A DNA stretch of 64,000 nucleotides, taken from positions 1 to 64,000 of the forward strand of contig JANQWK010000025.1 in NCBI GenBank assembly GCA_030729925.1, given 5' to 3'. Both the position numbers and the translations under genes were made by a program. The notes under the pieces were generated by a model. It was not told the DNA's origin, searched no databases, and was given only the letters and a program-made list of their open reading frames with translations. Below, one piece after another: positions 112-60,658 of this stretch. This DNA comes from Saprospiraceae bacterium. Its GTDB lineage: Bacteria > Bacteroidota > Bacteroidia > Chitinophagales > Saprospiraceae. The first letter of the stretch is position 1, and every line of letters starts with the position of its first letter.

Positions 112-188
112 GAAGCCACCTTAAGGTGCCTTCCACCTGATTATCGTATGGTTAATACCTCCACTACCACAATCGTAACCATTTTTCC
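112..188 (-). repeat. Palindromic element copy 1, truncated
   Basis: The invariant centre CACCTTAAGGTG lies at 117-128. The right unit AGGTG-CCTTC-CACCT and the outer CTGATTA are intact, but the left arm breaks off after GAAG, so only one of the two 15-bp units is complete. The inverted GGTTAC box (GTAACC, 175-180) and the TTAATACC box are present, so this copy reads right to left. It faces copy 2. Confidence 0.8.
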
Positions 189-337: not shown

Positions 338-443
338 GGTTACTTTTTTAGATGTCGGGGTATTAATAGGGGTAATCAGGTGCAAGGCACCTTAAGGTGG
401 CTTGCACCTGTGTTTTAAATATATGACAATCAATATTTTGAAT
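338..443 (+). repeat. Palindromic element copy 2
   Basis: GGTTAC is at 338-343, TATTAA at 361-366 and the centre CACCTTAAGGTG at 388-399. The units are AGGTG-CAAGG-CACCT and AGGTG-GCTTG-CACCT. Compared with most copies, the outer spacer bases are swapped on both arms (C on the left, G on the right), which preserves complementarity. The right flank ends in AATCAATATTTTGAAT. Confidence 0.85.
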
Positions 444-563
444 AAATTTTTTCTTTTACCGACCTGTTGACCATGCCAGGTGGCGGGAGGGGACAGACAA
501 TAAGGAAGAGGGTTAAAAGTGCGTGGGTAGCAGATTTGCTACCCACGCTTGTGATTTAGGTGT

Positions 564-15965: not shown

Positions 15966-16343
15966 GGGATCATCGCTTCGCGAAAAAAAAACCTCGATCT
16001 GGTTACTTTTTGATAGCCAGAGGGATTAATAAGGGTAATCAGGTGGAAGCCACCTTAAGGTGCCTTCCACCTGATTGCTAACTATTTGACTACCATTGTA
16101 TTAAATCCTTTTTTGCATCCAAGTTTCTCTACAATTTGCCCAACAACTGCTGTGGCTGCTGATTGGTTTTGTCAATCTGAGCCCGTCAACTGACTAGGGT
16201 GCTGTTTTCCAACTTTGTGAGCGCGAACGCCTCGTCACCAATCGAAGCATTTTGCAAAAAAAATATTTCTACAATTTTTTTTTGCAAATTTTTTAATTTA
16301 AAATTTGATTTTTTAATTTTATGCAGATCTAAAAAATTTTGTT
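15966..16343. other. Intergenic region with repeat copy 3 and an AT-rich leader
   Basis: This 378-bp gap holds palindromic element copy 3 (16001-16096) and, in its last 90 bases, a strongly AT-rich stretch with long A and T runs before the aminotransferase gene. The AT-rich part contains several near-matches to TAnnTTTG but no clearly best promoter. I see no gene. Confidence 0.6.
16001..16096 (+). repeat. Palindromic element copy 3
   Basis: GGTTAC is at 16001-16006 and the centre CACCTTAAGGTG at 16051-16062. The symmetrical core spans 16037-16076 with one mismatch (spacers GAAGC and CCTTC). ATTAATAAGGG precedes the core as in other copies. It lies 35 nt after the exporter stop codon. Confidence 0.85.
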
Positions 16344-17950: not shown

Positions 17951-18054
17951 GGTTACTTTTTGAGCGGTGAAGGTATTAACAAGGGGTAATCAGGTGGAAG
18001 GCACCTTAAGGTGCCTTCCACCTGATTCGCAAAATCCTGTTTTTCAAATAATTA
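17951..18054 (+). repeat. Palindromic element copy 4, perfect 40-bp palindrome
   Basis: GGTTAC is at 17951-17956, TATTAA at 17974-17979 and the core at 17988-18027, which is a perfect 40-bp palindrome centred between 18007 and 18008. The two units are 17992-18006 and 18009-18023 (spacers GAAGG and CCTTC). The right flank TTTTTCAAATAATTAAA runs up to the start codon at 18059, so this copy may lie in the leader of that gene. Confidence 0.9.
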
Positions 18055-18058
18055 AATT

Positions 18059-39827: not shown

Positions 39828-40207
39828 TGATCTTGACTGTCCTCCTACTCAGAAAAGATGGGCTTTAGAAGAGCTGCGCGTTGTGAAAGTTTTTCTACAA
39901 GGCAGACAGGGAATTTTTAAGGTGCTTTTAAGGTGTTTTTTTGAAGTTATTTATTTGAAAATCAATATTTTAGTAATCAGGTGGAAGCCACCTTAAGGTG
40001 GCTTCCACCTGATTACCGTTCATTAATACTTTTTCCCCCTCCGAAAGTAACCTGTTTGTGAAAATTTTTTGTGAAAGTTTTTTCCAACTTTCTTCGTTAC
40101 CCGGCTTAGCGAAGGCTTCCTGAGCAGAAGTAAGGGGAAGATCTGTCGGGAAAGATCTAAAAAAAGGGTATATTTCAGCATTGACAGGTTGGGAAAAAGC
40201 TACAATT
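39828..40207. other. Intergenic region with repeat copy 5 and a short direct repeat
   Basis: This 380-bp gap contains copy 5 of the palindromic element. Just before it TTTTAAGGTG occurs twice with an 11-bp period (39915-39924 and 39926-39935), repeating half of the element's core. GTGAAA-type runs follow the element up to about 40090. I see no gene. Confidence 0.6.
39954..40052 (-). repeat. Palindromic element copy 5, perfect 44-bp palindrome
   Basis: The core at 39973-40016 is a perfect 44-bp palindrome, the longest in the family here, with centre CACCTTAAGGTG at 39989-40000 and spacers GAAGC and GCTTC. ATTAATAC follows, and the inverted GGTTAC box (GTAACC) is at 40047-40052, so it reads on the minus strand. 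The far flank is TTTGAAAATCAATATTTTAG. Confidence 0.9.
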
Positions 40208-54840: not shown

Positions 54841-54870
54841 TGGAGAAGTGGTTTTTTGGGTATTAATATA

Positions 54871-54967
54871 TTTAAAATCAATGGTTTATGAAACAGGTGG
54901 AAGCCACCTTAAGGTGACTTCCACCTGTTTAACCCTTATTAATACCTCGACTTCCAAAAAGGTAACC
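54871..54967 (-). repeat. Palindromic element copy 6
   Basis: The core spans 54891-54930 with the centre CACCTTAAGGTG at 54905-54916. Spacers are GAAGC and ACTTC. The outer bases read AAACAGG and CCTGTTT instead of AATCAGG and CCTGATT, a paired change on both arms. TTAATACC and GGTAACC (54961-54967) follow, so it reads on the minus strand. It lies between convergent genes. Confidence 0.88.
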
Positions 54968-60293: not shown

Positions 60294-60658
60294 GTACTTG
60301 GGGAAATTTCGTTTATGAGCAAATACAACACGAAAATAGGGGATAATATTTTATCCGGCGCAAACTTTAGTCGGGATGTCAAAGATCCGGTGCATCCACC
60401 ATGGACGAATTTGGAGGCGTGGAAAAGGTGGGATTATGAAAACTTTTGGCTGAGAAAATTTATGTAATTTTTTGAAAATCATAATTTTATAATACAGGTG
60501 CAAGCCACCTTAAGGTGACTTGCACCTGATTACCCTTATTAATACCCTGGGCTGCCAAAAGGTAACCACTCTTTTGCGTCCGGATGAGGATGATCTCCTG
60601 CAATTGTTGTAGAAGGTCTCAGGGCCTTTGTTGAAAAGGGAGCCTTTGCATGGGTATT
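60294..60658. other. Intergenic region with repeat copy 7
   Basis: Contains palindromic element copy 7. A 50-codon plus-strand frame at 60315-60467 (MSKYNTKIGDNILSG to WLRKFM) is Trp-rich and may be a remnant or a small gene, but nothing supports its expression. Confidence 0.5.
60471..60567 (-). repeat. Palindromic element copy 7
   Basis: The core CAGGTG to CACCTG is at 60495-60528 with centre CACCTTAAGGTG at 60506-60517. Spacers are CAAGC and ACTTG; as in copy 2 the outer spacer pair is swapped to C and G. TTATTAATACCC and GGTAACC (60561-60567) follow, so it reads on the minus strand. The far flank is TTTGAAAATCATAATTTTAT. Confidence 0.88.

Follow-up and report, generated by a model that had tools for sequence, protein, structure and literature searches.

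The window analysed here, a stretch of 64,000 nucleotides from a Saprospiraceae bacterium, contains six matches to the pattern AGGTG-N5-CACCT-TA-AGGTG-N5-CACCT, starting at positions 378, 16041, 17992, 39979, 54895 and 60496, whereas none is expected by chance (0 in 100 dinucleotide shuffles). The layout described in the sequence-only reading, two AGGTG-N5-CACCT units joined by TA in six full copies, is therefore real, and within these six cores the half-sites are indeed constant and only the spacers vary. The copy at 17992 lies between genes for a class III aminotransferase and a PAD_porph protein. Its left domain was delimited by alignment and per-column information, and the five other full elements by pattern match, alignment and a covariance model:

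17951..17991, + strand: left domain preceding the 17992 core, GGTTACTTTTTG...GGTATTAACAAGGGGTAATC
17992..18023, + strand: core palindrome; in this copy the long hairpin is Watson-Crick paired throughout (16 pairs)
18024..18057, + strand: right domain of the same element, stopping 1 bp short of the PAD_porph ATG (18059)
338..452, + strand: full element, core 378-409
16001..16115, + strand: full element, core 16041-16072
39936..40052, - strand: full element, core 39979-40010
54852..54967, - strand: full element, core 54895-54926, with convergent genes on either side
60453..60567, - strand: full element, core 60496-60527
about 112..181, - strand: seventh, truncated copy consisting of the left domain and a partial core, without the last half-site and the right domain

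The truncated copy lies in the opposite orientation to the copy at 338. A search of the window against Rfam gave no family match at the gathering score.

Dispersal of the element in the genome

The source genome (3.74 Mb in 104 contigs) contains 132 exact matches to the core pattern, and a covariance model built from 19 copies identifies at least 150 full-length elements. We gathered 158 copies for comparison, with their orientation set by the flanks. The core is the middle of an oriented element of ~110 bp, conserved from ~41 bp before to ~43 bp after it, with the consensus GGTTACYTTTT-N10-GGTATTAATAAGGGTAATC / core / GATTNNTAAANATTTGANNATCAATATTTTAA. Lone 15-bp units were sought in 0.44 Mb, giving two unrelated-looking matches and one at a contig end, none of them convincing. 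Several G000 copies, for example L111, adjoin small tandem or inverted GGTTACTTTTT repeats, such as GGTTACTTTTTTGGGTTACTTTTTGG. Copies L140 and L134, both at contig ends, have identical right domains and different left domains, and are possibly one locus assembled twice.

Copies are scattered across the genome at a density of about one per 25 kb and are intergenic, with only 4 of 158 inside called ORFs. Convergent gene pairs are the commonest setting (45 of 127 classified copies, the four arrangements numbering 45, 33, 28 and 21; p=0.02 against equal numbers, based on heuristic ORF calls), and copies are found close to stop codons. Such placement would suit an RNA element at gene ends, either an mRNA stabiliser or a terminator, acting through the long hairpin and only secondarily linked to a transposase; the commonest half-site change, C14T, would moreover leave a G.U pair in place when the copy is transcribed in one of the two directions. 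However, copies flanked by co-directional genes lie either way round (33 and 28), and some copies directly precede start codons, including that of the transposase itself. Nor does a T-run follow the hairpin: TTTTT occurs in 1 of 148 copies, and none was called in a scan of the window, so that an intrinsic terminator was rejected. Overall, we regard the RNA reading as improbable.

The linked transposase and palindromes in related genomes

When the genome was searched for REP-associated tyrosine transposases, a 209-residue HUH/Y1 (RAYT-like) transposase was identified at C94:63618-64244, encoded by the sole full-length gene of its clade in the genome. Its ATG directly follows the right end of an element copy (L158: core 1430-1461, ATG 1504), and a second, inverted copy lies ~0.4 kb further upstream, measured core to core; downstream, no copy is present in the ~250 bp readable before a run of N. 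The protein has the HUH motif NHFH and the tyrosine motif YIHANP, and both NHFH and YIHxN are invariant across 13 aligned relatives; the WQ motif is absent, with LFR instead. It matches NF047646 REP_Tyr_transpos with E=2.1e-15 and 56.9 bits, below the curated cut-off of 80 bits. Pfam returned Y1_Tnp alone, with no HTH domain, and a PDB profile search with the transposase alignment gave nothing at E<=0.01. Other Y1 gene fragments, broken at contig ends, occur in G000 at C20:4280-4642, C77:3-296 and C9:5501-5704 (L207, L215 and L214, respectively). The C77 fragment has GTAGGGGCGCCCC in frame and the C20 fragment a GTGGGTGCCC repeat, in which they resemble subclass 2.4 genes that have REPs inserted inside them.

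Neither the element nor a C94-type protein was found in the same-genus genome G073 (88% complete). Coding identity between the two genomes is ~72–77%, and clean empty sites in G073 were rejected because the intergenic DNA does not align. One gene pair common to both is separated by ~90 bp in G073 and ~180 bp in the source genome, a difference compatible with insertion or loss, with undefined ends.

Homologs of the transposase were detected at E<=1e-15 in 72 of the 248 family genomes searched. Long palindromes lie within about 600 bp of 20 of the 29 homologous genes examined (44 in 30.5 kb), whereas the same scan gave none in a total of 115 kb of control sequence (93 kb from other Bacteroidetes loci and 21 kb from G073); the other nine genes lack a palindrome by the criterion used, some of them being near contig ends. 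These gene-adjacent palindromes differ from species to species and, in the four genomes checked, are dispersed in their own genome, with 70 copies in G058, 13 in G004, 12 in G122 and 10 in G125; genomes having other palindromes gave 0 copies, as did a reversed control pattern. By inspection, what the related palindromes more often share is an apex resembling ACT-N-AGT. The hairpin foot has GTAG in G004 and G058, and the right-domain motif TTGATAATCAATATTTTA is common to G004, where it stands beside another core. In G004, loci L268-L275 (for example, L270, L272 and L275 at 1501) have the same core with locus-specific, perfectly complementary outer arms of ~8–12 bp, which could reflect insertion into existing hairpins or snap-back extension. 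Locus L209 of G032 has a left-domain-like GGTTACCTTTTG...GTTATTAATAAAGGTA without a core at about 1505-1610, upstream of a probable coding start; this weak match may be due to chance.

Variation and folding of the core

All four half-sites are intact in 114 of the 158 copies; CACTT takes the place of CACCT at half-site 2 in 36, and a few copies have other half-site changes. One half-site position is thus dimorphic (23% T). Spacer positions 2-4 (AAG/CTT) are constant in all 137 tabulated copies, which makes the spacer centres as invariant as the half-sites. The expectation that half-sites stay fixed while spacers drift therefore survives genome-wide only in part: the half-sites are mostly kept, but half-site 2 is dimorphic and the spacer centres do not drift. 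Half-sites as variable as the spacers, the outcome named as contrary to that expectation, were not found among the 158 copies. Positions 6 and 27 covary (MI 0.72, 98.7% Watson-Crick), with C-G in 114 of 152 copies, G-C in 36 and G-G intermediates in 2. Exactly one non-Watson-Crick pair is present in 126 of 156 cores, two are present in five, and the remaining 25 cores are fully paired. Positions 10 and 23 pair in every one of the 36 CACTT copies, but these copies may represent one cassette type, in which case this exclusion of a second mispair is not independent evidence.

The three parts of the element vary independently. Compared among copies, cores are on average 93% identical, left domains 73% and right domains 54%; whole copies have diverged to a mean of 71% identity (81% to the nearest neighbour), and recent transposition is therefore not visible. 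Left and right domain similarities are uncorrelated (Mantel r=0.004, p=0.44). As many as 106 pairs of left domains are at least 95% identical, compared to 3.5 expected with independent columns, yet their right-domain identity (57% vs 57%) and their sharing of core types (12% vs 11%) are at background. The element is therefore not simply copied whole, and a miniature transposon copied as a unit was rejected. This independence could stem from core exchange, from short-tract gene conversion or from selection long maintained at each locus. The transposase might mainly swap cores in place, as cassettes between loci, rather than add copies, which would keep the core homogeneous, usually with one mispair, while the flanks of each locus diverge independently; we consider this rather doubtful.

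A homogeneous core between domains without a signal of common descent, spread genome-wide at about one copy per 25 kb, could also represent a pair of neighbouring duplex sites bound by a dimeric protein, such as a nucleoid or regulatory protein, and selected at each locus; adjacent dimer-binding sites were one of the two options offered by the sequence-only reading. However, dimer sites with free spacers need neither invariant spacer centres nor the joint swaps at 6/27, one half-site is changed in 23% of copies, and the palindrome families are species-specific and accompany the transposase gene. There is no sign of a dimer that binds duplex DNA, the linked protein being a single-strand-DNA HUH transposase, and we find this explanation quite improbable.

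Covariation and predicted stability both favour a single long hairpin over short hairpins of the arms. In contrast to 6/27, the within-arm pairs do not covary (MI 0.02 for 6-10 and 0.07 for 23-27), and positions 10 and 23 have no tendency to pair; the outer flanks do covary, with a mean complementary run of 2.17 vs 1.64, a value reached in 0 of 2000 shuffles. Folded as DNA, the long hairpin has −16.7 kcal/mol and the two-arm form −7.3 kcal/mol, a deficit of 9 kcal/mol that increases to 17 as RNA. The self-palindromic arms noted earlier are weakly significant in the source-genome family (shuffle p 0.026–0.034), a result that counts once because the copies may all share ancestry, and they fall short of significance when related families are pooled (combined p 0.10, source genome excluded). 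Consequently, although AGGTG/CACCT arms are able to self-pair and similar self-palindromic arms occur in G054 (AGGTGTGGCACACCT) and G072 (AGTCA-AATGG-TGACT), the proposed switch between one long hairpin and two short ones with complementary loops is energetically unfavourable and highly unlikely.

A probable atypical REP-type palindrome and the closest known systems

We propose, with a probability of roughly 0.8, that the core belongs to a RAYT system as an atypical palindrome of REP type, REPIN-like in being a compact inverted pair, and that the C94 transposase processes it. The two inverted copies immediately upstream of a gene for a single-strand-DNA transposase make an unusual kinship with the REP repeats, which such transposases spread, the most likely reading of the palindrome family. 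When single-stranded, for example in the lagging-strand template, the element would fold as a single long hairpin that mostly contains one mispair; the cognate C94 HUH/Y1 enzyme would recognise and process this hairpin, and would spread or exchange copies among intergenic sites. We infer that the transposase binds, cleaves and mobilises the element, whereas the number and placement of the copies, the covariation in the hairpin, the transposase gene next to a copy and the equivalent palindrome and transposase pairs of related genomes are shown by the data. The lack of a GTAG foot and of WQ, the divergence of the copies, the nine of 29 homologous genes without a palindrome, and the fact that the domains are not inherited together, which simple whole-element copying does not predict, count against the REP/RAYT reading. 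Single copies at gene ends may have secondary roles as well.

As in the REP/RAYT REPtrons of E. coli (PMC8266576), a Y1 HUH gene of RAYT type stands beside accompanying copies of a hairpin repeat that has many intergenic copies. The REPtrons differ in having a GTAG foot and WQ, both tied to GTAG recognition; in the source genome GT[AG]G is absent from the hairpin foot, which is TAATC/AGGTG, and we therefore refer to an atypical REP-like variant rather than to a canonical REP. They also have a single-foot hairpin, unlike the long palindrome with like ends found here inside a larger conserved element. The mispair in the stem recalls the mismatch bulge required for E. coli REP activity (PMC8266576), a parallel that is suggestive only.

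Bacteroidetes TnpA_Y1 subclass 2.6 (PMC6006769) shares with the present system its host phylum, a YIHxNP-type tyrosine motif, atypical flanking structures without GTAG, and copies elsewhere in the genome. Its motifs are NH[LIV]H, WQ and YIH[QN]NP, whereas those found here are NHFH, LFR and YIHANP, and its secondary structure is described as weak, whereas it is strong here. TIRYT/TIRtrons likewise combine a Y1 gene with flanking inverted repeats, some self-complementary and some repeated genomically, but their GGGGWSAS is absent from the core and no C-terminal HTH was found in the C94 protein (PMC3733652). REPINs and BIMEs offer a possible structural parallel, in that two inverted self-pairing halves together form one long hairpin; the linker here is 2 bp, compared to the usual 20–100 bp, although 1–2 bp is given for a few families (PMC3733652, PMC8266576).

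A literature search of open-licence papers returned no description of this palindrome family. New features are the absence of a GTAG foot and of WQ, the mostly single mispair per core and the independent variation of three domains. The findings extend transposase-linked palindromes to a family in which many species pair their own hairpin with their own version of the gene. This natural set of enzymes and substrates, several without GTAG, makes hairpin recognition and the retained mispair addressable, while the independently varying domains make persistence by core exchange, as opposed to copying, a testable proposition.
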